64,000 nucleotides of DNA, taken from assembly GCA_030247885.1 (NCBI GenBank), contig JAPDRO010000016.1, forward strand, positions 496,001 to 560,000, read 5' to 3'. The notes below the pieces were generated by a model. The model saw only the letters and a list, made by a program, of their open reading frames with translations. It was not told the origin of the DNA and searched no databases. A program made the position numbers and the translations under genes. Within the stretch, counting starts at the first letter, position 1; each line of letters opens with the position of its first letter. Origin of the DNA: Taxawa tesnikishii (nom. ined.) (Eukaryota; Ascomycota; Dothideomycetes; Dothideales). Below are positions 31,262 through 60,892 of the stretch, in pieces.

Positions 31262-32787
31262 TCATGTTTCAATCTCAAAGGGGATCACTTTGCCTTTGCA
31301 GATGGCAACCTCCTCCCGCAACTGTCTCTTAGTTGGACCGCGATATTGCAAGAATCGCTCGCACATATTCACTTACCCCGTTCTCATCCATATGGCCAAC
31401 CAGCTTCATGATCATGGGGGATATTGAAGCTTCGATGCATCTACCTTCGAGAGTGTCTTCGTCTTCGCCAGTCATGTCTTCCACGAAGAGTTGGTTGGAA
31501 AATCCATCCTTCGCCGGTAACCACATGCAGACGTGGAAGTTCGAATCCTGAAAACGGAGCGACTGGAGGAAGTTCAAGGCGGTAGTAACAATATTGTGCA
31601 ACTTCTTCTTCGTATGCTCGTCCCACTCCAAATTAGAAACTCCTGAGAATCTTTCTTGAATCCAGCGCGTCGTCGCTTCAATCAAGTTCTCCCTCCAGGC
31701 CTCCATCTCATTTCCTGCGTGCTGAGTCAAAATCTTCTGTGTCGCGAACAGCCAATCTTTGCTGCTAGAACTTTCATCTCTACCTGTGCTGACTTCAGTA
31801 CAGATTTCTACGCCAACAGCCAGTGGACTTACTCATCAACATGTGAGCAACGCTTGTTGCTTGAGTGGGCGATCCATCGTCTGCGATGCCAAAGTAGTAA
31901 CCCTCTTCGTAAATCTCGGCCAGGCTGGAGAAAACAATAGCCATGCAAATCGAAACCCGGAATTCTCGACTGCGGTTACGGTATTGAAGAACGTAGTCTG
32001 TCAAGAATGGATTGAAACCTGCTCTGACTCCCGCGTCAAAATCTAAGACATCGCTATCAGCAGGAGGCTTCCCATTGGGACATTCAGGCAGCTCACCCAG
32101 GTTAGTCTGACGGACCATGTCCACTGCCCAGCCTTGAACCTTGAAGAACACTTCGTTCATTGTTCTCCGGGTAGTTTCGTCCGTCATTCCCGAAGTAGTA
32201 GTGCCTGACGAAGCGATGAACTTCTTGTACTCTAGGATCTCCTTCTCGAGTGCCGTTGACTTGGCTCTTTCCTGCTGCACAGTCTTCTGGGCTTCCTTGA
32301 TCGTTTGTTGTAATTGCTGTTTCTGCGCCGTCAACGCTTCAATTTCGCGACTGGTTTCATTGTGGAGTGTATCGAAGCTTTCTTTGAGCTCTCTGTTGTT
32401 GCTACGAAGGTCACGGTTTGACTGCTGTAGCTGCTGTAGCTGCTGTAGCTGCCGTAACTGCTGTAGTAGCTGCTGTGTACTTGGGGTAATTTGATTCTGG
32501 CCTTGAGACGCACTTGGAGTGACGCGTCGGAAAACACCACCTCCGTCCCACATCGATGAGCGAAGTGTATACTCCAGTCCACATTTTGTAACTCACACAT
32601 GGTGCAAACGAGAGATCGAACGATTTGAGTTGTTCTGCGTTCTGTTCACCTGGTAAATCGATCCCTGCGAGCCAGTATCGACAAATGAATCGTTCATTGA
32701 GGGTCGTTGATGGGAGTACGCAGTCCCTTGTCGGCGAGGAGTAAGGCAGAAGTTCCGTGATGGTCGATACGAATTGTTTCCCTCCAT
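31262..32787 (-). CDS. Coiled-coil protein, partner A of an Hsp70-like gene pair
   Basis: No named domain. Exon 1 starts at 32787 (MEGNNSYRPSRNF; an upstream ATG at 32865 is possible). The second exon (to 31833) carries a Gln/Leu-rich coiled coil (LLQQLRQLQQLQQLQQSNRD, about 32400-32475), continuing through SREIEALTAQKQQLQQTIKE and AKSTALEKEILEYKKF, then a globular part with RVSICMAIVFSSLAEIYEEG. Exon 3 (31377 to about 31760) has WRENLIEATTRWIQERF and LPAKDGFSNQLFVEDMTGED. A short exon (31262-31312) ends VAICKGKVIPFEIET. Exon 1/2 and 2/3 boundaries are approximate. The C-terminal half is related to the coiled-coil protein at 59299 (same order of ...EIYEEGYYFG / QIFENGKYFG and LP...F...L.F...MED blocks). 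It is divergent from the Hsp70-like gene at 33322, as its relative is from 58414. Confidence 0.75.
32402..32470. repeat. CTG-rich short tandem repeat inside the coiled-coil gene
   Basis: Imperfect 12-base units of the type TGCTGTAGCTGC on the plus strand, encoding LQQLQQLQQ on the minus strand. It keeps the reading frame and the heptad-like Leu spacing, so length change here would lengthen or shorten the coiled coil. Confidence 0.7.
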
Positions 32788-32865
32788 CTCTGTGGTGTTC
32801 GTGTTGTTGTATTGGAGAGAGAGGGAAAGCGTTGAGGGAGGGTAGATCCTATTTGTTTCAGTCAT

Positions 32866-33321
32866 GACACAGTGCTGAGAAAATTCGCTGTCCCCGGACT
32901 TGAAGTGAAGGATCACGAGTGAAGTGATGAGCCTTGAACGTACTACGTAGCAGTGAGGCTACGCATCTGAATCGTCACTTACTAAACTCATCTACAGCTT
33001 CTATCAAACACCTAAATCCTCTCTTGAAACTCGTTAAGAACGTAGATTCTGTTCCTTCACGCCTATCAGTCCAACTGATCTCAGTGACTGCTGACTTGAC
33101 TCATTAAGTGAAGATTTCGAGCTCACATCTTACTTCATCTCTCCAATCAATCCTTCACTGCAGCTGCAGAAGTGAGCTAGTCGAGGCTCCTTGCGAAGAT
33201 CTGTCAAACTTCTGACACTTAGACATCATTCATCTCCATCTCGATATCACCTCGTAACTTTCCGTACATCTACTACCTTACAGCGCTCATATACGTCCAT
33301 ACACAGAACAGAGCAACCGTT
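32866..33321. promoter_or_regulatory. Divergent promoter between coiled-coil A and Hsp70-like A
   Basis: About 455 bases between opposite starts, A+T-richer than the flanking coding sequence, with several short TGAAG/CTTCA words. I cannot name a binding site. The same gene order and divergence is seen at 58415-59298. Confidence 0.4.
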
Positions 33322-35158
33322 ATGGCACCAACTCAGCCTGAGGACCGAATCGTCGTCGGCATTGACTTTGGTACCACCATGTCGGGAGTTGCCTTTGCCT
33401 ACAGCGCCAAACCAGAGGCTCCTGACGATATGCATGTCGTCAAGAAGTGAGTCAAATCCAATGAAATCCCCCATCGAAGGATGCTAACACTGTCGCAGCT
33501 GGCCTGGAGCTAACAATGTCACTTCCGACAAGGTGCCATCTGAGCTTGCATATGGTCACGACGGCACCGTGAAATGGGGCTATGAGATTAAGCCGGAGCA
33601 AGAGCGTCTAAAGTGCCTGAAGCTCTTACTGGAGACGAACAAGAAGTTCCCATCGTGGGCGACACGCGAAACACTTGATGAACAGCTTCGGAAGTGCAGC
33701 AAGACGGCGGTCGACGCAGTCGCGGACTACATCAAGCAGCTTCACAAGCATACGCGGGCAGAACTAGCCAAGACACTCGGCTCACAGATGACCAACACAA
33801 CGCAGATCCAGTATGTCCTGACGGTTCCCGCTGGATGGTCCGATGCTGCAAAAGCTGCCACTCTGAAGGCCGCGAAGAAGGCCGGGATGGGTTCGGATTT
33901 TTCCCTCATCAGCGAGCCCGAAGCTGCTATCATATATGCTCTCAGGTCTTCGCAACTGAAAGACCTCAAAGTCGGAGACATCTTCATCATCTGCGACGCC
34001 GGAGGTGGTACCGTCGATCTGATCGCATGTGAGGTTAAGCAGCTGTCCCCTCTGCGTCTTGAAGAGTCGGCCATGGGCATAGCCGAACTTTGCGGCTCTC
34101 GTTTCCTCAATATGCGGTTTGAGGAGCTTGTCAAATCTCGTGTCGGTCAAGACAAGTTCAATTCGCTTCGTCAGAGAAAGCCGAAGGCATTTGCCATAGC
34201 GATGAAATATTTTGACGACTACGTGAAGCGGAACTTCGACCCAGCCAGTTCCCAGGAGGAGTATGACGACTCGAAATACAACGTGCCTTTCCCAGGTGTC
34301 AAGGACAACCCGGCGGCTGGCATCGACTGCAGATTTTTCATTCTCTCAACCGCAGATGTGGCAGAAATACACCGTCCTGTCATTCAAGAGGTCCTCGAAC
34401 TTGTCGAGAAGCAAAAGCGCATCCTCGGTGCGTACGAAAAGATCGCGCGAGGCCTTTTCCTGGTTGGCGGATTTGGACAGTCAGGTCATTTGTTCAAGAC
34501 TCTTAGATCGACTTTCGCGGAAGAGGATCCTCCACCAACGTACCAGGAGACCGAAACCGAGCCAGTTGAGCTTGATCCTACGAGATTCATCATCATGCAG
34601 CCGGCCAATGCCTGGACGGCTGTCGTCCGTGGGGCAGTGCTTAGCGGTATTGAAGGCGGCAACCTTATCACCAGCCGCAAGTCAAGACGCCATTATGGTG
34701 TCGTCCACAGTTCAACTTTCGACCCACGCTGGCACTCTGAGAGAAACAAATACTGGGACGTTGTCAGAAAGGAGTGGGGAGCCAAAAACCAGATCTGGTG
34801 GTACATCAAGCGTGAGCAGACAGTGACCGCGGGTCGGCCCGTTCTGTTTCCGTTTACTTTCGCTAAGAAGACTGTAGCTATATAGGGGACGAATTCCATC
34901 GCCCTTGTGTACAGTGACGCAGAGACGGCTCCCAAAGAGCATGACACTCAATCCTTGAGCCGCTCACACGTTCTGTGCACGCTGCATGTCGACATGAGTC
35001 GGTTCCCGAAGAGGCGCTGGAGGAAGCGGACCAAGAATGGCAACGGCTGCTATCAGTTGGACTTCGACCTTGGCATGCAAATTGAGAGCGGCGGCCTGGC
35101 TTTCGATCTTCGTATCGACGAGAAGGTCTACGGAAAGGTGACGGCAAGCTTCGATTGA
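33322..35158 (+). CDS. Hsp70-like ATPase (HSPA12-like), copy A, with an in-frame stop
   Basis: Actin-fold ATPase of the HSPA12-like branch. Exon 1 is 33322-33446, the intron 33447-33498 (52 bases), then one long exon. Phosphate-1 motif VGIDFGTTMSGVAFAY, phosphate-2 motif IICDAGGGTVDLIA (about 33990) and adenosine motif LFLVGGFGQSGHL (about 34460) are intact. The substrate-binding half is short and unlike classical Hsp70. A TAG at 34883-34885 ends the frame after KKTVAI. The same frame then continues without other stops as GTNSIALVYSDAETAP...FDLRIDEKVYGKVTASFD to 35158, and that tail aligns with the end of copy B at 56138. So either the last 91 codons are lost, or the stop is an error or is read through. 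I give the full span. The translated ATPase part is about 505 residues. Confidence 0.87.
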
Positions 35159-36015
35159 CGGGTGGTATGCAGGAGAGGAGTTGTTCTACCTTTTCATGGT
35201 GCATTTGAGGCAATGTATTTCAACATGAGAGGTCATGTTGGGTTGGAGAGAAGCGGTCCTCTGACAGTGGAGGCAAACAGGCAGCGATACTGAGTGCAAC
35301 GAGTGATGATTTCATGATGTTGGTTATCAAATTCACCGTACAGCAGCGTAGAGTGATTCACAAGCTGCATATGCGGCATGAAATGGAATACACTCAACTC
35401 ATGCTAGCGTTCCACTCCCAAGATTGTCCGTGTACAGGACATCGTACTGTGTTCTCATTAACACATTGTATCGGTTGAAAATTGCTATATCAAGGCATAA
35501 GGGTTGTCTCTTATCCTCGAGAATGGCCAAAGCGATCACCACGACGGACGTCTAGCCGTTTCGCAAATATGCCGGCCAGCAGAACAACATGTCTGTATGA
35601 TTCTTGTGCACTGGTGGACAAGCCAGATAAGTGGCCATCCCAATGCAAAGATACAGATTCATATGCTGTAGGTTGTGCGGAAGTTGAGATGACAGATGGT
35701 TCAAAGGGCTCCGACGGTATGTCGGCCAGCGCCCACACAGATACCAAGAGCCGGTCTCATCGTTCAGTTTCGAAGTCGATAAGTCACTGTTCTAACGCGA
35801 GCGCTCAAGTTGATCTTCGGAGGCTCTCCTGGCATATCGGCTAGCGGAACAGCATCTGTAAATGACTCTCGCGAGCTGATTAGACTGACGAATAACTGAG
35901 TGCCCCAACGTAAAGGTTTGTATCCATATGCAGTCGCTGAGACTCAAGATGCTCTCTGCAGAGAGGACCCAAGATGCTACCGTATCGCCCGTGAAGACTC
36001 CGACGGTGGGTATAC
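35159..36015. other. Intergenic, nothing recognised
   Basis: An open frame of 120 codons (35482-35844, plus) is Ser/Arg-rich and matches no family I know. It is likely the joined 3' regions of two convergent genes. Confidence 0.45.
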
Positions 36016-37990
36016 TTATCCCGGTATCTGCGCTGTGAGTGTATTGAAGAAGTCAACCGGGAAGTACTGATCCTCTAATCCGTAGAACTCCGCCATTTCC
36101 GCATAGTCAACCTCTTGAGCCGGAGCAGTAGCAGTCAAGGGCGCTCGATAGTTGGGCCAAATGCCTCGCGCACTCTGAGGCATTGTATCCGATCTCCCTT
36201 GGCCGTCTTCGTCCCACTTCCTTAATCTGTTCAGCATGCCTTGCAGTCCTTTCGCGATATAATTTGACAAGTGTCGTTGACCGGCTTTTTCTCGCCTATC
36301 AATGTGATGCAACCTTCAATGAGCCGGATTAGATGATTAGTCTCACAGCATGGCGTGAGTCGACTCCATTTCAAGTGGATCTTGAGCAGAAAGACGACAG
36401 AGAAAGTGATGATGGTGTGGAGATAAAGCGGTACTCCCACCAGACAGCTGCGGATGTCCGGCTCGGATAGGACAACGTTAAGAAGATTTTCGGCACTCAG
36501 CACAGCGAAACTTGCAAACTCTCGCTGCGCCGTGGACATTACACTTGCGGTTTGTTCTGACAGGCCTCTGTAAGCGAGGGCATTGAGCTGCAGCTTTGCG
36601 AAATGATAGTGCAGTACCACTCCCTTGGCTGGGTAAGTGGCAACGTAGGGATTTGGAGCTACAAGATGATTATGGTCAGTCAATGGCCTACAACGTAGAA
36701 AAAACCATCATACCAAGACGGGATTCCCACGTCGTTCTCCAACCATCCAGATCCAAGTTGAACTGCCGCATGCGCAGAACTTTTCCCTCGTCAAATTGCT
36801 CTTCATCATCCAGACCGAAGGTGTTTTGTATGCGGCTGAGGATAATGAAAACTCCCACTTGGCTATGAAGCCTGTGATCCGGTTGTGTAATTCCTGGGAG
36901 CTGCAGGAATGATTCGTGGCAAGTGATGGTTGCATCTTCGTGAATCATTGGAGGTCTTCCGTAGGCAATACTAAAGTGATGATCACAGACGTACAAGAAG
37001 TACCACAGGCGCGCGTGTTCCAGATTCTCCAGCGAAGGTGTCCTCATGGCTTTGGGAAAGCTCAAGTGAAGATTCATCTCCATTGCGATCCGAACCGCGT
37101 GACCGGACAACTTCCAGCTGACCTCCGACAGCCAGAAAGCGCCGATGCAGAGGCCACGGATGTCATCGAGCGAATGGTACCTTGCGAACATTGAATCGCA
37201 GATAAGAGCGAGAAACTCAGTGTAACAGACATCGAACAGGGCTTCCTTTCCGGGCAGATGCAATGCTGTAACGGCAAGGATGGCGGTGGTTAAGAGGGCA
37301 GAGGACTTCCGAGCGGAGGACAATTCGCTGTGCAAAAGAGCAATACCGCCCCAAAGATAGTGATTCAACGAGCAACTGAAGGTCCGGAACAGCTCGTCTG
37401 CTTCTGCCATATTGACTTTGCCCTCTGAAATCAGGTCTGAAATCTCGGAGCGGTCTGACCTGGCGGGTTCATTGAGCTTGCTGCGGATGTTTCGGAGTCT
37501 TGTCACTTCGAACAGACTGGCCATGGGAGGTGCAACCACAGCATCCTCATCCTCGGGGTCTTGGGAGTTCTCCTTGTCATGGCCATAACTGGTGGACCTT
37601 GCCGTGGACTGGGCCTTGCAAAACTCTCTGAGCGATCTCGGACTGAAGATGCATCGATACTTGGGCGACCACCATTCTGGGCCAGGGTCGGTGTCCCGGC
37701 AACGGCTTGGACTGGGAAGGACTCCAGATTTGGTAAATTCAAAGTGCGCAATATCTCCGATACTGCTGCTTGGAGCTGCCCGGTTCGCCCCTTCAACACA
37801 GACTTCCATTCTGTATCATCTTCAAGAAGGGTTTGCAGGCTTTTGTTGACACTGCATTGCAGGCCAAGACGCCGGCAACGGGTGCAAGGTGTCTGACCTT
37901 CTGGCAGCTCGCACTTGATCTTACGAGAATGACACTCTGTACCTGTCAAACATAGTAAGCAATGTCTCCGGCAGGTTTTGCCTTGGCAAA
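36016..37990 (-). CDS. Zn2Cys6 transcription factor with fungal_trans domain
   Basis: Nuclear regulator. Five of the six zinc-cluster cysteines are visible at 37850-37945 (ECHSRKIKCELPEGQTPCTRCRRLGLQC); the first must lie in an upstream exon whose splice I could not resolve, so the start is approximate. A linker follows, then the fungal-specific regulatory domain (HYLWGGIALLHSELSSARK, GLCIGAFWLSEVSWKLSGHAVRIAMEMNLH, LWYFLYVCDHHFSIAYGRPP). An intron lies at about 36660-36715. The C-terminus ends VDFFNTLTAQIPG. One frame break at about 37572 (a G missing from AAGGAG on the coding strand; restored, it reads TRENSQDPEDEDAVVAPP) and a second in the A-run near 36290 (IGEKKAGQRHLSNYIAKG). It lies between the Hsp70-like gene and the membrane-protein gene, with no clue to targets. 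Confidence 0.8.
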
Positions 37991-38791
37991 GTAATCGAGT
38001 GGCTCATTGATTGCTTGTCTGTTTGTCCATGGAGGGAGGGCTAGACTGTGACATGACCGCTCAAGCGAACGACACGCGCCGTCTGGCGTTTCTTAGGGGC
38101 ACGGCTTGAAGTCCGAGAGTTATGTACGATAGACGAAGAATTTACTCACATGCTTTGACTCTTCGAGAAACCTTGGCCTGGTGTAGCGCGGCTGAAGTGG
38201 ACCTTTGCAGCTTCGGCGAGTTGGCCGAGGGCTGGTCATCAGACGCGTGGGAGTATGCTCGTTTCATTATACCAGTGGATTACCTTGGCGAGATCATGCA
38301 TACCGTTGCTGAGAGCCGCATTGCTTGATAACTTTAGTAATAGCTCCGACCCTGTGCGTGGAAGTGTAGGTAGGAAAGATATTTGCGATGCCCTCGCCTC
38401 TCCTCACTCATGGCCTTTACCTCGGCTTTCTGCCCGTTGTTCGGCATAACCCCGGAAGAAGGCCATCGTTCATGGGGACTTTCTTCGCAGGACAATCACA
38501 ACTCTTCCACTCGCTTATCTCTTCTCCTCTAAGAGGAGCACAGGGCTTGTGTAACCACATATCCCGTGCCAAGCAGGATTTTTGTTCGCTGAACTTGACG
38601 AGTGCTTACTATGTATAGAGCTGCCAAGTACGGCACAGCCCCTTTTGGCGACGAGGCAACGAGGCGACAAGAGAGAATGGATGACGAAGCAACAAGCGGC
38701 CTCCAAGGCAGCGAGGGAGTATTTGGAAAAGCAGGTACTCCTTCCAGCTTCGATCCACTTTGTTCCTAACTCCAATCACTGCCTCTCAAGG
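37991..38791. other. Divergent intergenic region, nothing recognised
   Basis: Contains the unresolved first exon and promoter of the zinc-cluster regulator and the promoter of the membrane-protein gene. Short Ser-rich open frames only. Confidence 0.4.
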
Positions 38792-40909
38792 ATGCCACCA
38801 ACACCGAGACTGCGGGTTGCCGCGCTGCTAATCTGTATCACTATACTTCTCCTAGCGGCTAAGGCAGAAGCAAGGTACCAGTTCTCTACTTGCAAGAGTG
38901 ATATCCAGGACATTATAGCCGGAAACATCACGGATCGTCGAATGAGAAACGGTACCAGCATCAACCCGACGAATATCCAAGCGCTGTTCTATCATGGCAT
39001 CGTCCGCGGTCTCGACCCCAACGCAACAAGACCTATCACCGTGACGTATGAAGGTACATAGTTTTGGTTGTGCCTGAATCCTCTGCACGATTTCCGTTCT
39101 GCCCCTTTTCCTCGCAGTGCGTGATCGTTGAAGTGTAGCCGGCAGCATGGATACAATGGAGGACAAGCTACATTCGTTTGAGCCGCATCTCATGCTCATG
39201 GCGAGCTTGGCTGATTGATGCAGGCTGTCTCGAGCTTTGCGGTAAAGACAAGACAGGCCTCAATGACATCTACAAAGCATTCGCCATCCTCACAACCTGG
39301 GTCCTACCAGCGGTGGCCCTTTTCTCCAACCTGCCTTGGGAATCCTTATCTCGCGACAAGCTCAAGATAGTGGAGGCCTTCACGAACTGGATAGGCTCGC
39401 CGCAAGCCGCACTTGCCAACACCATGTTCAACGTCTATGTCATCAAGCAGTGCCATGATCGGTCGGAGGTGACGCCTGATCAAATTGTCAAAGATGCTTT
39501 CTATGTCTTGAGTTGCGTGAATCAGTATGAATATCCCAGCTACACCCAGACAAGGCTAAGGAGACGCTGGGAAACCGACACCGAAAGGCAGGTTCGTCAG
39601 CGAGCGAGGGATAAGGTTTTGCTCTATGGACTCTACCGACCACTGACTCGCGTGTACTCGGGACACTATCTGCCAAGAGACGACATCAAAGATACGCGCA
39701 TACTGTTGTCTAACCTGGCGTATCAGCTAAGGATGTATCGGAGAAGGGGAGTGTATCCTCAGTCGATCAACATCCTCTGGTTCCTGGTGGCCTTCGTCAT
39801 CTCGCTCGTCACAGCATTCGCTGATCTTGGAGACAACACTACGGCTCACTCATTGGCCTTGGGTTTGCTCTTGTCTTGGTTGCCTGTGCTGATCACCATG
39901 ATGATCGTCGACCGCAATCCGTCTGCATCAACCAGGTGCAGAGTACGTCACCCCTTCTGAATGGGTCTCGGTGATGCTAACGCCGATAGGTGCTCATCGA
40001 GCGATGGCTTTACAATGTCAACTACATTTATTGCGAACATCACAGACAAGGCTCAGACAGTGCGCCGCATGGTGCCCGGGACCTGAGATATACAGATTGG
40101 TGGAAGCCCAGCATACAGTCTGACGCTCTGGATCTATGTATCGGTGACTTTGTCGGACAGGGGCGACGACTGCGCTACTGCGGCATCGCGAATGCCATTC
40201 TGTCTAGAACCGCTGAATGGAGTTATGAAGAGGAGCAGTTGGGGACACAGTACGATAAAGCGCTGAGCGACTTCAAGAAAAAGCGCTGGAGAGACGGCCG
40301 CCCAGCTGGTGGGCCATCTGGATTTCTGCGCAACTGATCGTATCGACAAGCGCATTCATGGGTTTCATGGTCTCTTTTAACACACCTACCATCGGCCTCG
40401 GCTGCCGCTCCTTCATGATCCTGCTTTGGTGGATCCTCAGCAGTGTATCCTGGATTGTCCAATTCTTCTACCAGGAACCGCCGCGATATACACTTGTCGT
40501 CACCATCCCATTCAACAGCTTCTCTGCCACGCTGCTCTTTATCATCATGTTGTTCCAGGTACGCGTCCCACACGCCCATTCTCACGAGATCGCCGTGTCG
40601 CATGCCTGACAAGACTCTCAGGTGACTAACGGTCTCAATAATTGCCTCTGCAAATCCTCAATTTTCGGCACCAGCAGCTACGGCGGGTATCTGGACTTCG
40701 AAACAGCGCAGTTCTATAAAGACCACTTCCACGTCGTCCGCTACTGGGCGCCTGCTGCCGCTTTCGGCATGTTTTCCGCCCTGTCCGCCATCTTGTGGGC
40801 GCTGCGGAAGTGGAGTGTGAGCGATTCGCTGTGGCATGCACAAGAGGACCCAAAAAGCCGGCCGAGCAGGATGACAGGAACGATGGACGGGTCAGTCTGG
40901 ATTGGCTAA
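38792..40909 (+). CDS. Uncharacterised multi-pass membrane protein with signal peptide
   Basis: Family not named, but the pattern is familiar from other filamentous fungi. Exons 38792-39053, 39224-39942, 39990-40558 and 40622-40909. The N-terminus has a hydrophobic leader (RVAALLICITILLLAAKAEA), then a Cys-containing outer segment. Membrane segments are seen at AFAILTTWVLPAVALF, INILWFLVAFVISLVTAF, ALGLLLSWLPVLITMMIV, SFMILLWWILSSVSWIVQFF, ATLLFIIMLF and a final pair around WAPAAAFGMFSALSAILWAL, with long soluble loops between. One frame break: WWAIWISAQLIVSTSAFMGF is reached only if one C is restored at CCC 40301-40303; otherwise translation stops at 40337. The large 170-base first intron is the longest in this gene. 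Function unknown. Confidence 0.77.
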
Positions 40910-41039
40910 TATGAGGACATGCCTGGGAAACCTGGAATGGAAGGGTTTGTTATATTGCGATGCGTGTGTACACTTTTCGATAGCTGGCCAACGACACGAT
41001 CCGATACATCATTTCCTGCCGGATCTCCAGTGTCACGAA

Positions 41040-42242: not shown

Positions 42243-42696
42243 GTTGCTCTGAAGAAATACATCTGTCCGCTTTGTATCTCAATTAAGTCCATTCCGACGT
42301 ATATATATAACCTTTCCATGTATAGTAATCATATACGTCGGAGGCAAAAGCCTTTGCAATGCTCTGCGCCGTAAATGCATGCTTCTAGTTATTGACTAAG
42401 CGATCCACCAAGACATGGCGACGGTTGATCGTCGTTCCCGGTGTAGTAGTTAGATGATTACTGATACATAATCCACTGCCGCGTCAAAAGACGTTGCTTC
42501 GAGGTTAGCTTAGCTCGCGCCAGATGCTCTGTTGCAACGTTTCGTCAAATCGCGCAGGTTGGTGTGTCAACCTGTTCCGCCCATATCTTGAGGCAGACAG
42601 TCCAGCAAAACTTTCAAAACTTGAGTGAAGCTGGAGTAAAGACGCCGAGCTTGAACCAGGGGTTGCTGAGCATCGACACGACTACACTTGCCTGAA
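42243..42696. other. Intergenic, nothing recognised
   Basis: 454 bases. An A+T-rich patch (tatatatataacc at about 42300-42312) may be a TATA-like element for the NmrA-like gene, which starts at 42242 on the minus strand. Confidence 0.4.
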
Positions 42697-43615: not shown

Positions 43616-43920
43616 GATTGAGTTGTAGTAGTGGATGCGGTGTCTTCTGGTGAATGCATGTGTGCCTCTTCTGTTCTGCTCCATCCTCACATGGCTTGGC
43701 ACAGGAATTCCCTCCCCGCGTGTTGGTCTGAGCTCCATCATGTTTCTAGAAGCCTCTGAGAGAGTAGAAAGTCACCTCATATCTCGAATCATTCCTCGTC
43801 TCGAAAGTACATACTACGCATCGCTTGATACCCCGTTGACGAGACCACGAACCACCAATCGGAAGCAGCTCAGTCAAATTTCACACTTTCAAACGTAAAC
43901 GAACGCAAAGCTCTACACAA
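43616..43920. promoter_or_regulatory. Divergent promoter of the FolB gene and STI1
   Basis: 305 bases between opposite starts. It contains GAA/TTC words that could suit heat-shock factor (STI1 is heat-inducible in yeasts), but no clean triple repeat was identified. Confidence 0.3.
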
Positions 43921-45766
43921 TGGCGGACGCATTGAAGGCAGAAGGAAACAAGCTCTTTGCTGCAAAGGATTTCCATGGTGCGGTGTGAGTACATTGTTCC
44001 TTTTAGACTCGTTTCAAGAGCGTACTGAACTCCATACAGAGAAAAGTTCAGCGAGGCTATCAAGCTCGACCCCCAGAATCACGTCCTTTACTCGAACCGT
44101 TCTGGCGCCTACGCCTCCTTGAAAGATTTCGAACATGCATTGGAAGATGCCACTAAGACCACCGAGTTGAAGCCAGACTGGGCAAAGGGCTACAGCAGGA
44201 AAGGTGCTGCACTGCACGGTGTAGGCAACCTTGGTAAGAGACGCAACATCATACTCCACGCATGCACATGCTGACGCTTTCACAGTGGACGCTGTCGATG
44301 CCTTCGAGGAAGCACTCAAGCTCGAGCCCACCAACGCGCAAGCAAAGTCCGGCCTCGACGCAGTGAAGCGCGCTGTCGAAGCAGAAGCCCGAGCAGACGG
44401 TGTCACAGGCGACCCAACCGGAGGCCTAGGCAGCATGTTCAACGACCCACAACTCTATCAGAAGCTCGCCAACAACCCAAAGACTAGCGGACTGCTCGGG
44501 GACTCGGCTTTCATGGCGGAGCTGGAGAAGATCAAGAAGAACCCGAACGACATTGGCAAGGCTATGGGAGACCCGAGGTTCCTGCAGGTCATGAGCGTGT
44601 TGCTGGGTATCGATATGCAGTTCGGAGCACCTGGCGAGGAGGGTACGAACACTGGCGCAAAAGAGGCGGAAGAGGATGTGCCGATGCCAGATGCGCCGAA
44701 GCCCGCTGAGACGAAAAAGGCACCCGAACCCGAACCAGAGCCCGAACCTGAAGACGAGGATGCTATGGCGGCAAAGAGGGCGAAAGAGGAGGCGGAGCAG
44801 GAGAAGAAGCTTGGAACGGAGAACTACAAGAAGCGCCAATTCGACGAGGCCATCGCGCACTACAGCAAGGCATGGGAGTTACACAAGGACATCACATACC
44901 TCAACAACCTCGGAGCCGCCAAATTCGAAAAGGGCGACTACCAAGGTGCAATCGAAGCCTGTCAGCAGGCCGTCGAGCACGGTCGCGAGATGCTTGCCGA
45001 TTTCAAGCTGATCGCCAAGGCATACGGCCGGATTGGTACCGCATACGAGAAGCAGGGCGACCTCCCCAACGCCATCACAAACTACCAGAAGTCGCTCACC
45101 GAGCACCGCACGCCCGAAATCCTCAACAAGCTGCGCGCGGCGGAAAAGGCCAAGATAGAAGCGGAAAAGAACGCCTACATCGACCCAGCAAAGGCCGAAG
45201 AAGCACGCGAGCTCGGCAACCAGAAGTTCAAGGAAGCAGACTGGCCAGCCGCCGTGGAGGCGTACAGCGAGATGATCAAGCGCGCGCCCGAGGACCCACG
45301 AGGGTACTCGAACCGGGCCGCCTGCTTCATCAAACTGCTGACCTTCCCGTCCGCGGTGCAAGACTGCGACGTGGCAATCGCAAAGGACCCCTCCTTCATC
45401 CGGGCGTACCTGCGCAAAGCGCAAGCCCTGTTCGCGATGCGCGAGTACAACAAGTGCATCGACGTGTGCGGCGAGGCGTCGGCGCACGACAAGGACGGCA
45501 AGAACGCGCGCGAGATCGAGCAGCAGAGCCAGAAGGCGCTGCAGGCGCAGTTCAGCGCGCGTGAGGGCGAGACCGAGGAGCAGACCCAGGAGCGCATCCA
45601 GCGCGATCCGGAAATCATGGGCATCTTGCAGGATCCCGTCATGCAGAGTATCCTGCAGCAGGCAAAGGGTGATCCGGCCGCGCTGCAGGAGCACATGAGG
45701 AACCCGGGCATCAGGAACAAGATCCAGAAGCTGGTTGCTGCGGGTGTGATCAGGGTTGGTAGGTAA
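43921..45766 (+). CDS. sti1: STI1 / HOP, Hsp70-Hsp90 organising co-chaperone
   Basis: Cytosolic adaptor that holds Hsp70 and Hsp90 together through three TPR blocks. Exons 43921-43984, 44040-44233 and 44286-45766. TPR1 begins at the N-terminus ([20 protein letters not shown]...[20 protein letters not shown]). The DP1 region is [20 protein letters not shown]. An acidic [13 protein letters not shown] linker follows, then TPR2A ([20 protein letters not shown]), TPR2B ([20 protein letters not shown]) and a C-terminal DP2 ending [20 protein letters not shown]. About 575 residues, usual length. No frame break and no missing domain. It shares the window with two Hsp70-like genes but is a general housekeeping co-chaperone. 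Confidence 0.96.
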
Positions 45767-51178: not shown

Positions 51179-51899
51179 AGGGGGCTGGTGATGGGATGGG
51201 TTGGGAGAAGGTCGTTTATGGGTGAAAAATGGCAGTCAGTGGGGCCGGATATACACGGGGAGGGGGAAATGCACAGAACGAGTTGGGTCGAAGAGGTTGG
51301 GGACTCGGGAACACACCCGTTTTGCATAGTACGTATCAGGGTCTCTATATCAGTTTGCCATCGTCTGGTCTGGCATGTCCCGACAGAGTGGCAGTCGCAA
51401 AGTTTACAGCTTGAGAAAGCGAACCGCGCGATCTTGTTCCTTCAGAGACGGGGGGTTTGACGCGAACTGTATACGAGCGAAACAAGTGGCTCATCCAGTG
51501 CATTCTCATTCCCATCATGTGGGGACAAATTCCCGCAACAGAAGGCAGATACTTCAATCTGCAGGGGCTCTGGTATAACGAGGGTGATTTGGGGATGTGT
51601 CCAGCGAACGTCTGAAATCATGGGCATGCGTGGCCATACCCATGGCGTGGAAACTGAAAAAAAAATGAAAAAAAGCGACTCGGAGAGAAAGCCATGCTGG
51701 CGAGAGTGTTCCTACTCGAAGCAATGTACGTCCACCGAGTTTTCAAAACGTCTTCGACCCTGGATTTGCTGTATATATGCGCTGACAGAGCCGCGGGGTT
51801 GGTTGTCTTCGGGCATCGTGAAGCTGCTCAGCGGTGGCAAAGGGCTTGCCGAGTAGAAAACAACCAGTCTCGCTTGAGCAAGGGGATCGAATATCTCAC
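51179..51899. other. Intergenic, nothing recognised
   Basis: 3' flank of the AT-hook gene leading into a gene relic. Short open frames only. Confidence 0.45.
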
Positions 51900-52890
51900 A
51901 GAGTGCCCATTGCTGGTAATCCTCTGCATCTAGAAAGCGTGAGAGAAAGCATCGTGACTGTACGATGTAGGTGTTGCTTGACCGTTCCCGTGGCATCACG
52001 CAGCCAAGTTCTGCTCGCAAGGCGTACAGTACGGCCCATGTCAAATGCCTAGCGATGCTGCAGTGTGGTGATGAGAGCGAAGTTGCACAAAATTGTCATT
52101 GGGTCTTGTGCCTCTCCATCGCGCGCATCGTGTCGGATGTGAGCAAGCAGTTGTAGTGCAACTCGTGGCCCGTCAACTATACGCATACGTTTGAGCGCAT
52201 CTACCGCGAGGGGTTCGTGCGTCGAAACATGATCGAACGCGGTCTGCCACGTCTCAACAGCAGCATCCGAATCATCCCGATGTTTCTCCAGAGGTCCGTG
52301 AAGGAAGCATTGAGGGCGTTGGGTTTGTTGAGCAAACCTTGCAAAGGTATTGTCGTACCATACTCGTCGGATTGTTCGCAAGGAAAGCGAGAGCCTGCGA
52401 GGTCGCTAACGGTATATGGGACAACTCCGTTACGAGATCGCCAACACCAGGCTGCAGACTCCAGTCCATTGATGGTGGCAGTCTGGCTACAAGCAAGCAT
52501 TTAGCAGTCTCGTGGTCCATTCCAGGCACATCAATGACTCGTGCAGCGTCTCAATCGACAAGCGATAATGCAGCTCTCCTGTCCCTGGAAGTGGCCAGAA
52601 TGAAACCTTCCGGACTATGCGGTACGTGATTTAAGAGGCAGAAACCATGGGCTTGCGGTGTTGAGCCGTTGTAGTGGTTGAGGCATGGTTGTTGATCGCC
52701 GTCCCACAGTAGTTAACCCCAAGATGGGCGTTTGCTTGCTCTCCAATGGTGTTGTGGTGGAACTGATGGCCTGAAGGCTGCCCCAAAGAGCCGTCCGCCA
52801 TCTCGGCCAAACAAACAAAAGAGACGTCTCCAGACAGAGACTTCCAAGGTGAACAGTTTAGCGCCGGGAGGATAGGAGGGTACATACATG
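51900..52890 (-). pseudogene. Relic of an NLR-type (NB-ARC/TPR-like) gene
   Basis: Minus-strand fragments in several frames read like a decayed fungal NLR. From the 5' side: GHQFHHNTIGEQANAHLGVN (about 52774-52715), resembling the short motif found before the nucleotide-binding domain in many fungal NLRs; TELSHIPLATSQALAFLANN (about 52445-52385); VETWQTAFDHVSTHEPLAVD (about 52265-52205); and TILCNFALITTLQHR with AFDMGRTVRLASRTWLRD (about 52100-51985). These are the helical parts that follow NB-ARC in such proteins. Only about 250 bases lie between the first two fragments, so the nucleotide-binding core is missing. I see no intact frame. The assignment rests on motif style, not on a match. Confidence 0.5.
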
Positions 52891-54136
52891 CATCACAAAG
52901 AGTCCCGCTCCTCCAATCGACGAGGGTAAACGGCGGTCGTCAAACAGAACCGGATCCTCTTAGCAGCTTGTAGGTTCGCGAAACGTCCGTCTGGCCGGAG
53001 AAGTACATTTCTAGCGGTTACTGTCCTAAGGGAGGCGAGATGCGTTCGCGATTGCGCCTAGGTCTCTTCTATGAGGAGGTGGATAGATTTGGCTGTCTTT
53101 AGAACCTGGCAGCTCGACAAACGCGCCGTATGTGTTGTACGTTGCCGACATATTCATTCCTGCCGCGGAGGCGTTTCTCCCATGCCGTCAGTGAGAACAA
53201 ATGGAAGGTCGACGGATGGAACAACTCTCGGACATGGCAGTAACTATCGGATGCTTTCTGGCATCACGCAGGTCCTCGAAGCGTCCGCCTGGTCCGACAG
53301 GCAAACCCTTTGAACACGGACCCTCACAAGGTGATAACAGATGCGGACACTTCCATCGCGTCCTCACACTTTACGGATGTCTCGAGAACTATCCGAGAAG
53401 GTGTACGAGATACAGTCGATGGACGCTGGTATGGCTGGCAGGTGATCGCGCGGAAATGAATGCTGACGACGCAACCTTCGCATCGCGGACAAACTTGAGA
53501 CGAAAAACTCGGATGGCTCGCTTGTCGCTCGTGGTGGCTCAAACACCGTGGACATTACCAGTATCAGCGCAGGACAGAAGACCCGGTTTGCTGTTTTACT
53601 AGAATGAGATTCTGCAGAGTCAACACGTTGCAAGCGTTTGCTATTAGCGTTGGATGTCCTGTTTCATGGATGCATTTGAATTGTCCCGGGCACATACGTA
53701 GTAGTGCAGACTGAAGTCGGGACGGAAAGTGGTTCTAGAGCTTCCCAAGGCCGAGGTTCGTCTATACCAAGCACATAATGACAACAATATCCACATGTCC
53801 CTACATAAGGTGCCGCAATTTCCGTGCAGACGGCAGGTGCTCTAAAGCATGCACAAACGGCGGCTCTGTATTCCTCCACCAATGATTGAAGCTGATACAT
53901 ATAAGCGAATGAGGCAGAATTCAATTGCGGGGCCCAGGAGGGTCTCCGTACCTGGCTATGCCGAGAAGCGTTAGCAGAATCTGGACACCCCAGATGAACT
54001 CCACATGTACGGAGTACGCCAGCGGAGAAAATTAAGAATCCAGAAACGCCACAGAAAACCCATGGGGAGATATATGTAGGACCTGCGCCGGCCAAGGGCT
54101 TGAGAGGAGAGGAAGCATTCGCCACGACAAGTTAAG
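52891..54136. other. Intergenic, with one decayed open frame of unknown origin
   Basis: About 1.25 kb. Around 53330-53600 the plus strand has protein-like stretches in more than one frame (DVSRTIREGVRDTVDGRWYG and GGSNTVDITSISAGQK), which look like a degenerate coding region, but I cannot assign a family. The rest holds nothing recognisable. The last part is the promoter of the exopolygalacturonase. Confidence 0.4.
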
Positions 54137-55623
54137 ATGTTGTTCAAGCCATTATTCGCCGCCGCGGCCCTGTCCGCCCTCACAGCTGTTGCAACCCCAA
54201 CATGGTCTGCATATCAGGAGTACGAGCACACCCTGCCCAAGCATGTCTCCAAGCATCAGGGTACCCGGCCGAAGGTGAACGTCGGTCCCAAGCACCTGGC
54301 CCAGCCTCTGCCAGTCAGCCCGCCCAGGAACAAGGACTGCTACGTGAAAAGCCACAACGACGGCAAGACCGACGACTCTCCTTACATTCTGGACGCCATC
54401 GACAAGTGCAACAACGGTGGTCACGTCATCTTCTCTCAGGGCACCACGTACATCATCGGTACCGCCTTGAACCTGACATACCTGAACCACATCGATCTTG
54501 GTAAGTCTGATCCATCAATATTGTGGGGTCCCCGTGATTGACTGTCAATCTAGACATTCAGGGATATATCCAGTTCACCAACGACACCGACTACTGGCAA
54601 GCAAATGCCTTCAAGCAAATCTTCCAGAACGCCACCACTTTCTTCCAGCTGGGAGGAAACGACGTGAACGTTTACGGTGGAGGCTTCCTTGACGGTAATG
54701 GACAGGTATGAAACGTACGTGCCTTCTTCATCTCGCCAATGTTGACCTTGCCATTGTAGGTGTGGTACGACCTGTACGCCCGGAACATCTACATTCTGCG
54801 CCCGATCCTGTTCGGTGTGGTCGGTCTGCACAACAGCACCATCTCGAACTTGAACCTGCGCTACTCGCCACAGTACTACAACTGGGTGGCCAATAGCACC
54901 AATGTTGTGTACGACAACATCACCATCAGCGGATACAGCCAGAGCAACGCCACGGCCAAGAACACCGACGGCTGGGACACCTACCGCAGCAGCAACATTG
55001 TCATCCAGAACAGTGTGATCAACAATGGAGACGACTGTGTCTCTTTCAAGCCCAACAGCACCAACATGATTGTACAGAACCTGCACTGCAATGGCAGCCA
55101 CGGTATCTCTGTCGGCTCCCTTGGCCAGTACGTCGGTGAGGTCGACATCGTGGAGAACATCTACGTCTACAACATTGCCATGTCCAACGCCTCCGACGGC
55201 GCGCGCATCAAGGTCTGGCCCGGCTCGCCCGCCGCTCTCTCCGGCGACCTCCAGGGCGGCGGAGGCACTGGCCGCGTCCGCAACATCACCTACGACACCA
55301 TGTCGATCGACAACGTCGACTACGCGATCGAGGTGACGCAATGCTACGGCCAGAAGAACCTGACGCTGTGCAACGAATTCCCATCCTCGCTCACCATCAG
55401 CGACATCTCCATCTCCAACGTGCACGGCAAGACGAGCAGCAAGTACCAGCCCATCTCCGGCTACGTCGTCTGCAGCAGCGAGAGCGTGTGCAGCAACATC
55501 ACCCTGACCGACATCGCTGTCACGACCCCAAGCGGCGTCGAGAACGAGTTCACTTGCGGTGATGTCGACCAGACGCTGCTGCACGGCATCAACTGCACCA
55601 CGACGAACAAGGGAAGCAACTAG
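54137..55623 (+). CDS. Exopolygalacturonase, glycoside hydrolase family 28, secreted
   Basis: Pectin-degrading GH28 enzyme that releases galacturonate from chain ends. Exons 54137-54500, 54554-54705 and 54760-55623. A signal peptide [20 protein letters not shown] is followed by a basic propeptide-like stretch. The right-handed beta-helix carries the catalytic motifs: NTDGWD (first Asp), [10 protein letters not shown] (Asp pair), [13 protein letters not shown] (His) and ARIKVWPG (R-I-K). Many N-glycosylation sequons (NST, NSS, NAT) suit a secreted protein. CNEFPSS and the terminal Cys residues resemble exo- rather than endo-acting members. About 460 residues, usual. No frame break. The reading is clean throughout, in contrast to its neighbours. 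Confidence 0.95.
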
Positions 55624-56137
55624 AAGCGCTTCTTTGACGTTGATGTGTATGTAATATCCAAATTCCAAAAAATTGAAACCATTTTCCTACAGCCGTGAAC
55701 GATGCCCCTGACGTGATGAAGAGGTCTCGTACTTCCGAAATGATCCCAATGCCCGCTTTTACTTCCCGGGCTCGGAGATATGCATGTGTTGCTTTGAATC
55801 ATTTGTGTGTGTACGTTGTCTGAAACGTTGGAAGTAGGCCCAACTGACCGCTAGTACCCAGGTACCTATCGCTATCGCGTTGTTGATCAGCGCCATCCCC
55901 TCTCCGACATGAAAGTGCTTTGTTATGTCCGCACGAAGTATGGCTCTCCCGGGAGGGCCAGGCCGGGTCATGACCGCGTCCAGCAGTAGCCATCCTCATC
56001 CTTGCCCACAGAAGAACGCCCCGCAAGCGCCTGCGACGCCACGCTCCTCCACCGCGCAAAGCTTCCAATGACAGCACAACCCGATCCACGCTGTTTCCCC
56101 ATTACCACCAAACTCGGTGAAATCGTCTTTTTTTCTT
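55624..56137. other. Convergent 3' region, nothing recognised
   Basis: 514 bases between the exopolygalacturonase and Hsp70-like copy B, both ending here. Confidence 0.5.
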
Positions 56138-58414
56138 TTAATGAAACTCAGCCTGCACGCTACCGTACTTGACGCCATCAACCCTCAACTCAAACACCAA
56201 GTTAGCGCTCTCGATCTTCATGTGCAGCTCGAAATCCAGGTTATCGAACTCGACGCCCTTGGTGGTCGTGAGCCTGGTGAACAGATTCCTGGGCACGGTA
56301 TTGAGGTCCGTTCTCAGCGTGCAGACGGTGATGAGGTCTTTGCCGAACGCATCGGGCGCTGCGTCCGCGTCGCACGCGATCAGGTCGTCCTCCACGACCA
56401 GTGATTGGCCGGGGCGGAAGTTGCGCGTGTAGTGAAAGGAGATCGGGGTGTCGGGGGATATTGCTGCGCCCTAGAAGCGGGTGTGAGTCGAACGTGACGA
56501 GTGATGTGGAAACAGCTGGGAAGGGAAGGGGAGGGTTAGGCTGACCTTTGCGATATGCCACTGCATGCGATCGCTGACCATGAAGCGCTCCCAGAGAGGA
56601 CTCCAGTAGCGGTCTGAGATTGAATGTTTTGATTCGTCGAAGACGGTTGCGTATGAAGTACCGTAGTGATGCCTGCTTCGTCGGCTCATCACCATGCTTC
56701 CTTCGAGGCCACGCAAAACTGCGCCGCGGACGACGGCGGTCCACGCATACTGCGGCTGCAGAATCTCGATGTTGGTACGGGGTTGTTGGGCTGGCTGGTG
56801 GGTCGGAGTCTCGGTATAAGCTGGTGGGGGCTCCGAGTTGAAATGCTTCCTGAGCACGTTGTAGAGATAATTCGATTGACCGAAGCCTGTAAGAATTCCG
56901 TCAGCAAATCGTGAGAAGAAAGGTGTTCAGGAATAGCCGGGCAACCAATTGAGCAGCCTGAGAGCGTCAAGGACGGCTGCCAACGATTTGTCACATCCAA
57001 TCTAAAGTAATGCTGCCGCCACCTGGCCTTCCATTTGACAGAGCAGCCATCGTCCTGGCCCCATCCTTCTTGCTGAGAGAAGTTTGCGCCTGAAATGGAC
57101 CGTTGCGGGATGTGCTAGTGCATTGGTTCACTCACCTCCAACCAATATTATCCCCGAGACGTGTCCGTCCTTAGCTTGAATCGCCTTAACCTGACCGTCA
57201 ACCAGCGCCACGACCTCCGCGACCACCGGATCAAAGATCGCCTTCACCTGCTCAGGGCTCATGACCAAAAACCCACTGTCCAGGCCTGCCTCTTCGTCAT
57301 CCGGCAGTCCAGGGAACGGCACGTTAACCTCTTGGTTCTCCTCCTCGTTGAAATTCCTCTTAACGAATTCGTCAAAATACTTGAACGCCATCATCCACGT
57401 CTTAGGCTTCTTCTCACGCATATGCGTGTACCTCTCCAGTCCTATCCGCTCCTTGACATGGTCTTCAAACCGGTAGTTCAGGAATGCGGAACCGCATAGA
57501 CCACCCGTTCCCACTGCTGACTCTTCGACACGAAGAGGCGATACTTGGTTCACCTTGTAAGCAATCAGGTCTACCGTTCCGCCTCCGGCGTCGCAGACCA
57601 CGAACTGGGGTGCGTCAGCTTGCAGCGGCTTCCATCGAGAGTGCGATTGTACATACGTTATCGCCAACTTTGAGCGTTTTGGGTTGCATACTCTTCAGCG
57701 TGTACACAGCCGCCGCCTCCGGTTCGCTGATGAGCTTCAACTCGTGTCTGTTGCCCATACCAGCGCGTTCTGCAGCCTGCAATGTGGCATTTTTCGCCGC
57801 GTCCGACCATACGGCGGGCACGGTGAGCACGAACTCGACCTTGGTGGTCGCCATGAACGACTCGCCATATCTCCGGGTCAAGGTCTCCATGGTGTGCTTG
57901 TACAGTTGGCCCAGGTAGTCCGACACCGCATCCATGACTGTTCTGTCGCATTTCCGCAATTGCGCGGCCGTATCGAGCGGCGAGACGAAATGGGGCAGCT
58001 TCTGGTTGCGGTCCAGGAACAGCTTGATGCAGCGCAATCGCGGTTCTTCCGGTCGGAACTGGAATCCCCATCGTATTGTGTTCGTGGTTGCTGCGTCTGC
58101 TGCGGGTGTAGAGCCGTCCCTGGAGGCCGGGGGTCGTAGGAGATCTCGGTGGGGACCTTGTCGGACGTGATTCCGTTTCCCCCTGGCCATGTTTTGATGA
58201 TGTCAATGTCGTCCGGGTTCGCGCTGTATGCGGCCGCGATGGCAGAGAAGGTTGTTCCCAAATCACATCCGACGACCAGCTTGTCATGATGTTCTGTGTC
58301 TCCGTTCGTCGCGGGTGCGCCATTTGCAACATAAGAAACTGTCCCGTTCGCCGTGGCCATGGCCTTCGGGGATCCTGAGGCCGGCGCCTCTGCAGGACGG
58401 GTATCCTCGGCCAT
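56138..58414 (-). CDS. Hsp70-like ATPase (HSPA12-like), copy B
   Basis: Paralogue of the gene at 33322. Exons 57657-58414, 57136-57604, 56546-56886 and 56138-56470; the intron between 56887 and 57135 is unusually long (249 bases). An N-terminal extension rich in Ala/Gly/Thr (MAEDTRPAEAPASGSPKAMA) precedes VVGCDLGTTFSAIAAAYSAN (phosphate 1). Later: LISEPEAAAVYTLKSM, VVCDAGGGTVDLIAYKV (phosphate 2), IILVGGFGQSNYLYNVLRKH (adenosine). The C-terminus ends LRVDGVKYGSVQAEFH and matches the tail of copy A. One frame break: EISYDP then PASRDGSTPAADAATTNTIR needs one more C on the coding strand (plus-strand GGGGG 58129-58133). Copy A has no intron at the phosphate-2 position, so the copies are not recent. 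It is divergent from the coiled-coil gene at 59299. Confidence 0.9.
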
Positions 58415-59298
58415 GATCGTCGGAGTTGGGGTTCGTTCTCCCACAACGATCCTGATCTGTGAGGACTTGGCTCTGATGTGCTTGCTTCTAGTGCTGCCCA
58501 CGTGAGTTAATTCTACAGCGATGGCAGTTTGCATGGGAGGAGCGGGCCCAGTATGACCAGCTAGTTATACTGGGTACTGGGTAGGTACTCCGTGCGTGGA
58601 CAAGTCAACCAAGCTTCGGTTTCCAGACGGCGGTGGGGAGAACTAGAACTACCTAGGCGCAATGACGAGGCAGGCCCCCATGTCCGCAGAAACAGCAGCG
58701 CGACACGCTTATACTTGACTGGCGACGAGACTCAGGCGTGGTCTCGCAACTTGCGCCGGAGTCCGGATCTCCAACGATGTGCTGGAGCGTGGTCAGAATG
58801 GTGCAGGGATCCCCACCCACACCGTTCCTGGCACTAGGGCGAAGCTGAAGAGCGTTCGCATGCTTGGCGTTAGCTGCTTTGGGCATCATCGACACACCAT
58901 ATTGCCGTTCCCCTATACTATCGACACCTTGTCAGCAGTAATGCCGGCTCGGACATCTGCCGGCGGCCATGTCAGGGCCAATATTGCAGGAACAATGAGG
59001 ATGGGTCGGTCCAGGTCGCCTTAAGAGCTGCACTCTCCGGCCTTCAAATCCGTTCCCGCGTCCTGTTGCTGGAACTTGTTACACGGGTACCGGTTTAAGC
59101 TTCGCGACGAGCACGATCAGGCGTGTTTGGCATTTGCGCATGTACCACTAGTCTTAGTGGTTGGATCATCCCCAGACGTTGCCGTTTGAAAATGTCCGAA
59201 CGACCCGCTGTCTGACCCACTATAGTCATACATATATCAGCATATTCTTGCCAGTAACTTTCGGCCACGCCGATCTCTACCGTCGCTGAGAGCCCCTC
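58415..59298. promoter_or_regulatory. Divergent promoter between Hsp70-like B and coiled-coil B
   Basis: 884 bases between opposite starts. No gene recognised and no named site. It is longer than the equivalent region of pair A. Confidence 0.4.
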
Positions 59299-60892
59299 AT
59301 GGCAGCGAAAGACTACTTCTATACAGAAGTAGATGGCAGCAGTGTTTCGACGAACGGATCCTCTCCGCAGGCCAACGATAGACCGTCGCGGTCTCGACGC
59401 GTGTCTAACCTGATTGGGCGCTTCGAGCAACTCTCTAGTAAATCCCCAAAGAAACGAGCGACTGCCACGGAAAACGAATCTGGGAGGCCCAATAGCGAAA
59501 GCTCGCCAAGGACCTCTCCAGCGCCCAAAAATGCCAGGATGCTGTTTTGCAGGCGAAACTGCACGAAGAGGTCGCGCAAAGGGCGCACATCACCGAGCAG
59601 TATGCGTGTCTGCGGACTGCACACGAGCAGGACCAGACAACCATCGCGAGCATCCAGAAGAGAGCAAAAGAGCGCGAACAGGCTTACCGAACTCTGAGTG
59701 CGCAGCATGAAACCCTCAATGAAGAATGCAGCAAGCTTCAAACCGGACACCGAGAACTCGAGACTCGGCTTCGCGCAAGCGAATCGAGAGCACGGGAAAT
59801 GGCAGTACAAGCAGACGAGTTGCGCCGCCAGATGCTCGATCTGAAGCAGAGCATATCCACATCCGCACGCGTGCCCAACCAGGTGACAGATCAGGAACTG
59901 GCACAGGGTCTTAACACACTCAATCACGAGATCCAGAACTGGGTCGTGCAGTACTTCCGGAAGGTCAAGATTGGTATGCGATCAGATTATAAGACACATC
60001 CTTGTTCATCTGCGCTGACACCGACACAAAGATCCCACAGTGGACATGCACGAGCGCTTTGAGAGCGTGCCTTTCCCTGACCGATCAGCCGGACTTCAGG
60101 CCGCTTATAGGATCTTCGACAACTCCCAGAGGCTCGCCGTCTTCCAAAGCACTGTTGTGCACTTCATGATGCAGATATTCGAGAACGGGAAGTATTTCGG
60201 ATTGCCCGGGCAAGAAGGATTGCAGAGCATTCCAACGCTCGTCGAAGCTTTCAGATGTACGTATGGCCTTGCCGCGCAGCGGGGACGCTTTGCTGAAAAC
60301 AGTTCAGCAGTTTGACTGTTGACCTGCATCATCACTTCTCCCTTCACACGGCTGATTCGGCGAATTCTAGCTCCGAGCGCAGCCTACAAGCAATGGCATT
60401 CCTTGACCTTTGAGATGGTAAACAGCAATGAAGGAATTCATGAAACGACAGAGGCCGAAGAGACACGTGTGACTGAACAGATTGACAATGCCATGAGAAT
60501 ACTAACAGCCACCGAGCCTAGTGGAGTGCGCCTGAAAAGCCTGCACTCGATTGTGAAGCGCGCAACCTCCATATCGCGCCTTTGCCATGTGCAGCTTGCG
60601 CAGTACACTTTCGTTCTACCGAACACAAACGCCTTCGAACCCCTTAGGTTTGATGCGTCGACCATGGAAGACATGCATGGCGAAAGCGAATCAGAGCTGG
60701 ATGGGTATCTTGTCAAGTGTGTGGTCTTCCCTGCAGTTATCAAGACCGGCGACGAACATGGAGAAAACGTAAGTAAAGGATGTCGTTGACGCCGACGGGT
60801 TGCTGAAACGTGTCAAGACGCAACTCCAAAACGTGATCATGAAGGCCAAAGTCCTGTGCGTTGAGCCCAAGGATGCGACAACGGTCGGATGA
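59299..60892 (+). CDS. Coiled-coil protein, partner B of an Hsp70-like gene pair
   Basis: Related to the protein at 31262-32787. Starts MAAKDYFYTEVDGSSVSTNG, with a disordered basic region (RRVSNLIGRFEQLSSKSPKK). A long coiled coil follows: LQAKLHEEVAQRAHITEQYA, REQAYRTLSAQHETLNEECS, RASESRAREMAVQADELRRQ. Then the globular part LNHEIQNWVVQYFRKVK, an intron (about 59973-60030), VDMHERFESVPFPDRSAG, VVHFMMQIFENGKYFGLPGQ, a second intron (about 60256-60371), and YTFVLPNTNAFEPLRFDAST with MEDMHGESESELDGYLVKCV. The end (DVVDADGLLKRVKTQLQNVI) is reached after a frame change near 60779. An earlier break at AAA 59498-59500 separates the N-terminus from the coiled coil (one more A gives NSEKLAKDLSSAQKCQDAVL). 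No named domain; probable partner of the neighbouring Hsp70-like protein, by position only. Confidence 0.75.

Follow-up and report, generated by a model that had tools for sequence, protein, structure and literature searches.

Head-to-head pairs of an atypical Hsp70 gene and a coiled-coil protein gene in the genome of Taxawa tesnikishii

Three loci in the genome of the ascomycete Taxawa tesnikishii (29.4 Mb, 34 contigs) carry a gene for an atypical Hsp70 and a gene for a coiled-coil protein in head-to-head orientation, and this arrangement suggests, without proving it, that the two proteins function together. Two of the loci, pairs 1 and 2, lie about 21 kb apart in the window, i.e., the whole stretch of 64,000 nucleotides that was analysed (contig 8, positions 496001-560000). 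Pair 3 is on contig 32. The divergent layout of the two window loci had been proposed from a reading of the sequence alone, and it is borne out, with spacings of 456 and 884 bp; the genes of pair 3 are separated by 391 bp. Gene models were built by three-frame reading with assumed start codons, and the features are as follows (window coordinates, unless a locus is named):

31262-32865, minus: CC1, coiled-coil partner of pair 1; exons 32865-32597 (N-terminal, uncertain), 32512-31833, 31783-31377 and 31321-31262; acidic block VEDMTGEDEDTLEG
32866-33321: upstream region common to pair 1, 456 bp between assumed start codons
33322-35158, plus: H1, atypical Hsp70 of pair 1; ATG at 33322; exons 33322-33446 and 33499-34885
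56138-58414, minus: H2, atypical Hsp70 of pair 2; introns 57655-57605, 57134-56887 and 56545-56471
58415-59298: upstream region common to pair 2, 884 bp between assumed start codons
59299-60892, plus: CC2, coiled-coil partner of pair 2; ATG at 59299 (N-terminus uncertain); N-terminal piece 59299 to about 59495 (other frame), exons 59496-59973, 60041-60256, 60383-60768 and 60818-60892; acidic block MEDMHGESESELDG
Locus L035 (contig 32), start codon at 5185, minus: H3, atypical Hsp70 of pair 3
Locus L035 (contig 32), from 5577, plus: CC3, coiled-coil partner of pair 3

Homology of the pairs and their unpaired relatives

H1 and H2 are identical in 266 of 610 aligned columns (44%), from the phosphate-1 motif through the tail, which confirms the paralogy claimed in the sequence-only reading. 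The same reading held that the pairing would be a coincidence if the coiled-coil proteins were not homologous. With the coiled coil excluded, the tails of CC1 and CC2 are in fact homologous (68/286 identical, 24%; E 8e-8 for a nominal database of 10 million residues); in a Smith-Waterman comparison they score 138, against a mean of 32 and a maximum of 83 in 1000 shuffles. Both genes contain an intron of the same phase that splits the same aligned serine codon (MLMS and AFRS, respectively), and a second intron, in phase 0, that follows DENG in CC1 and GEN in CC2, one alignment residue apart; the CC2 acceptors were picked from several candidates for their fit to the homologue, and the argument from intron positions therefore rests on the donors. 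The motifs proposed for the two proteins stand, apart from a small slip in one of them: EIYEEGYYFG and QIFENGKYFG are present, as is LP-x4-F-x2-L-x-F in CC2, but CC1 has LP-x4-F-x3-L-F in its place.

Searches for this type of Hsp70 covered one fungal genome and detected at least five loci. The H1 query retrieves H1, H2 and loci on contigs 33, 32 (H3) and 21, with canonical Hsp70s at E > 0.001; the H3 query gives the same five loci, and canonical Hsp70s start at E 0.04. The contig 33 gene as a query again finds the five, but canonical Hsp70s (contigs 1, 33 and 13; E 1e-5 to 3e-4) then equal the score of the contig 21 locus. Three of the five loci are paired, or three of four without the wrecked copy on contig 21, and 3/3 pairs are divergent; on the coiled-coil side, half of the genes counted (3/6) have an Hsp70 partner.

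CC3 was first noticed through a weak match to CC2 (E 0.024). Another candidate relative, a match on contig 7 (E 0.012), was dropped, as it is antisense to another open frame; this shows that E 0.02 is unreliable on its own, and CC3 was therefore retested. Its Smith-Waterman score with CC2 (85) exceeds all 300 shuffles (maximum 49). A profile made from CC1, CC2 and the unpaired relative CC4, with CC3 left out, finds CC3 at E 2e-4 among 3243 open reading frames (ORFs; database size 10000). The next matches outside the CC1, CC2 and CC4 exons and CC3 are a frame of CC6, another unpaired relative, at E 0.12 and an antisense frame at 0.26. A profile built without CC3 scores it at 20.7 bits, and the best of 1000 shuffles reaches 6.7. 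By these comparisons, though not by all (see below), the membership of CC3 in the CC1/CC2 family is well supported. Hsp70 homology is observed at all three loci, and coiled-coil homology at two, with good support at the third.

This third divergent pair, elsewhere in the genome, makes chance adjacency of Hsp70 and coiled-coil genes unlikely. Adjacency at three of four undecayed loci would have a chance probability of 5e-10 to 3.5e-7 if the loci are independent, assuming 9000-12000 genes and family sizes of 3-20. The Hsp70 tree, in which one outgroup row is in the wrong reading frame, contains no well-supported fork. A scan of contig collections detected 27 distant loci, all in bacterial records; in viral contigs, 55 stretches fit a search pattern, and none is a relative.

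The two remaining Hsp70 loci differ in state. The copy on contig 33 looks intact, and the 9.9 kb read there contain, as judged by eye, no relative of the coiled-coil proteins; its neighbours, also identified by eye, are presumably a poly(A) polymerase and a phosphoinositide phosphatase. The copy on contig 21 (locus L038, contig positions 14000-23900) is wrecked and adjoins a stretch of 24-27% GC. The TpA/ApT ratio of this locus as a whole is 1.47, compared to 0.64 in the window, a value compatible with repeat-induced mutation in the vicinity; the locus also contains a DUF6579 gene.

Three members of the coiled-coil family occur at places where none of the five Hsp70 loci is found. CC4 (L036:4435-6191, minus strand; contig 32 at 558k) matches the CC1+CC2 profile with an hhalign probability of 91% (E 8.8e-7) and scores 130 against CC2 (maximum of 300 shuffles, 55); with CC1 alone, the score is 38, as high in 35/300 shuffles. 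CC4 adjoins a large frame of KKKGKK repeats. CC5 (contig 33 at 888k) and CC6 (contig 23 at 1672k) match CC4 only, with scores of 86 and 76 (shuffle maxima 53 and 54), and accordingly have a looser place in the family; neither has a Pfam family above cut-off.

Properties of the two proteins

H1, H2 and H3 all have the phosphate-1 (DxGTT), phosphate-2 (DxGGGT) and adenosine (VGGFG) motifs that define the ATPase domain of the Hsp70 superfamily. The Pfam scan covered CC1, CC2, CC3, H1 and one H3 exon, with H2 left out. H1 matches the HSP70 family at 30.2 bits (cut-off 20.6) over part of the model; the H3 exon alone scores 20.2, just under the cut-off, and 23.6, above it, in the genome search, whose 20 places do not include H2. 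A PDB search with the H1/H2 profile finds Hsp70 ATPase domains (best E 5e-7); in the best 60 of 112 matches the profile is aligned only within residues 119-257, and none of these 60 is an HSPA12 entry. We provisionally regard H1-H3 as HSPA12-like. None ends in EEVD, the C-terminus of canonical cytosolic Hsp70s: the last residues are ASFD in H1 (past its TAG), AEFH in H2 and LAFD in H3.

Whole CC1, CC2 and CC3 give only sub-cut-off Pfam matches, mostly to coiled coils; the CC2 tail has no Pfam match up to E 1, the CC1 tail no NCBIfam match, and the tails no match in PDB. NCBIfam and PADLOC yield only general Hsp70, SMC-type or other coiled-coil matches. No HET, NLR, HeLo, patatin or gasdermin match was found by Pfam up to E 1 for any of the five sequences scanned. 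The heptad bias of CC2 (0.67) is above 1000/1000 segment shuffles and 94/94 whole shuffles, and that of CC3 (0.62) is above 1000/1000 and 93/94, respectively. In CC1, CC2 (N-terminus excluded) and CC3, the 14-mer with the most negative charge is one and the same aligned block, located before the last conserved stretch, with a net charge of -7, -6 and -5, respectively; in CC4, the most acidic 14-mer of the tail lies elsewhere.

A possible chaperone unit and its alternatives

Our reading, put forward tentatively and at rather less than even confidence, is that the Hsp70 and the coiled-coil protein form a two-gene chaperone unit, the Hsp70 gripping its partner by the acidic block. It is favoured by the fact that wherever both genes occur together (3/3 loci, one of them on another contig) they are head to head, 456, 884 and 391 bp apart. 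The available part of one report describes how human HSPA12A, also an atypical Hsp70, holds its partner SorLA via acidic residues in a nucleotide-dependent manner, with more binding in the presence of ADP and less with ATP; SorLA, however, is a membrane receptor and not a coiled-coil protein, and no gene pairing is described there (PMC6345817). In our reading, the Hsp70-type ATPase and the coiled-coil protein would be made together from the common upstream region and would bind each other. The coiled-coil protein would oligomerise through the coiled coil at its N-terminus, with the acidic block exposed on the C-terminal domain. By analogy with HSPA12A, the Hsp70 might grip this block in the ADP state and release it with ATP, so that ATP turnover would switch the coiled-coil scaffold.

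Several observations weigh against such a unit. One Hsp70 (contig 33) and at least one coiled-coil relative (CC4) occur unpaired, and the 'dedicated' partner of the sequence-only reading is therefore too strong a term: the former has no such neighbour by eye, and the latter has none of the five Hsp70 loci beside it. The heptad bias of CC1 is modest (0.48; 14/1000 segment and 3/84 whole shuffles are as high). The direct Smith-Waterman score of CC1 and CC3 is 43, i.e., at chance level (21/300 shuffles as high), as is the score of 36 for CC3 and CC4 (103/300); hhalign gives CC3 against CC1+CC2 a probability of 4% (E 0.011), and a profile enlarged by CC5 ranks CC3 (E 0.24) behind an antisense ORF (0.08). 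Structure prediction failed for a CC1 exon, modelled in alignment with its CC2 counterpart, and for an H1 exon, with predicted local distance difference test values (pLDDT) of 38 and 37, respectively. Acidic loops are common, and for this reason, as well as because HSPA12 kinship is our assumption, the SorLA analogy is weak. A single ancestral pair may have given rise to all three, in which case they are not three independent events. Finally, four of the six paired genes (H1, H2, CC2 and H3) have a stop or frame change, which counts against the unit if it reflects decay. The sequence-only reading had concluded that the two families work together; the third divergent pair argues against coincidence, while cooperation itself is still something that we infer.

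The strongest alternative, though unlikely, is that both genes were duplicated in one block and have remained neighbours owing to the shortness and divergent layout of the pair, the two proteins being functionally unrelated. Such compact arrangements are not easily disrupted without damage to a common promoter. H1/H2 and CC1/CC2, about 21 kb apart, are the top-scoring of the compared pairs (928 and 138), although CC2-CC4 scores nearly as high (130). Against block copying, the third pair is on another contig, and the identity has dropped to 32-44% between the Hsp70s and to 19-26% between the coiled-coil tails, so that the pairs have had a long time to separate. Nor do the loci have anything else convincingly in common. 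A blastp comparison of 1116 ORFs, taken from the window and loci L035-L038, finds 38 pairs at E <= 1e-3, namely 29 of Hsp70 exons, four of coiled-coil genes (two of which may rest on the coiled-coil parts), three antisense Hsp70 echoes, one in an STI1 region and one judged to be chance (L035:1051-1437 and window 29771-30055, E 8e-4). A block duplication carrying other genes was rejected on these grounds. H2 and H3 share an intron site (phase 0, after HIAK and LISK, respectively), at which the contig 33 gene is open.

It is improbable, in our estimate, that the pairs reflect co-regulation only, with a bidirectional promoter serving the same stress or growth phase and no contact between the proteins. 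As this would predict, the two genes of every pair diverge from start codons no more than 0.9 kb apart, but the three upstream regions have no 8- to 10-base word in common and contain no exact three-unit heat-shock element.

We consider it equally improbable that these are decaying lineage-specific genes without present function. The wrecked fifth Hsp70 beside the low-GC stretch on contig 21 is in line with decay, and so are the breaks in the paired genes. H1 has an in-frame TAG at 34883-34885, after which the homologous reading runs on in the same frame to 35158. As many as 26 introns with GT/AG ends (38-160 bases) would remove this stop and keep the downstream frame; the shortest stop-removing one is 45 bases long, so that each also deletes coding sequence. 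The frame of H2 changes near 58100 with no convincing intron, as the sole GT-AG intron enumerated would delete SDKVPTEISYD, which is present in H1 as well. In CC2 (near 59496), several introns are possible and none is convincing; in H3, the change is at about position 3770 of L035, downstream of LILVGGFGDSEYLF. On the other hand, the catalytic motifs and homology over the whole length persist, the H1 stop is avoidable by introns with legal ends, and a similar frame change in the tail of the unpaired CC4 makes the breaks fit assembly errors as well as decay. The breaks may be either.

GrpE has a coiled coil, a helical part and C-terminal strands, and the very-low-confidence model of the CC1 exon likewise places helices before strands in the tail, but that the coiled-coil protein is a GrpE-like nucleotide exchange factor is the least probable of these alternatives, since CC1, CC2 and CC3 have no Pfam GrpE match up to E 1 and the sole place listed in the genome search for GrpE is on contig 4.

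An Hsp70 with a helper of its own is already known, as in HscA-HscB, DnaK-GrpE and Ssz1-Zuo1, where the Hsp70 has a dedicated co-chaperone. The chaperone unit proposed here would resemble them in joining an Hsp70-type ATPase with its own helper; it differs in that the helper family (CC1, CC2 and CC3) matches no co-chaperone profile tested (J-domain, GrpE or BAG; Pfam up to E 1) and in that the Hsp70s do not end in EEVD. Seven Hsp70 subfamilies are distinguished in Ascomycota, among them atypical Hsp70s acting with partners; the word HSPA12 is absent from the main text of that report (PMC3879978). No account of a fungal Hsp70/coiled-coil gene pair is found among the literature matches listed, in which subscription journals are mostly uncovered.

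A broader idea, to which we give little credence, is that of an undescribed fungal family of two-gene switches, each made of an Hsp70-type ATPase clamp and a fast-evolving coiled-coil sensor or scaffold, with duplication-driven birth, pairing and loss like that of immune or allorecognition pairs. Fungal allorecognition loci have a two-gene layout. They too consist of adjacent, lineage-variable gene pairs, but the words Hsp70, heat shock and chaperone are absent from the main texts of two reviews (PMC10197012, PMC12881547), and the pair proteins scanned have no HET, NLR or HeLo match in Pfam.

The coiled-coil family found beside such Hsp70s at three places is a ready candidate partner for them and gives a testable rule for how these Hsp70s select what they hold. 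Should the same pairing be met with throughout the fungi, a new chaperone unit would be defined.

Neighbouring genes

A domain scan of 20 chosen window ORFs identified FolB, STI1, DUF5427 and a family-28 glycosidase between the two window pairs, along with weak transcription-factor and NmrA matches under cut-off. The STI1 gene (44225-45763, plus strand) has STI1/HOP DP domains together with TPR repeats, a domain content that marks it as the Hsp70-Hsp90 bridging co-chaperone, and its location between two Hsp70 pairs is probably a coincidence.

Beside pair 3, L035:7772-9153 (contig 32, 142.3-143.7k) encodes a GTPase with a long coiled coil and a hydrophobic C-terminus. It matches MMR_HSR1 over the cut-off and AIG1 under it, and its own place is the sole genome match listed at E 0.01.

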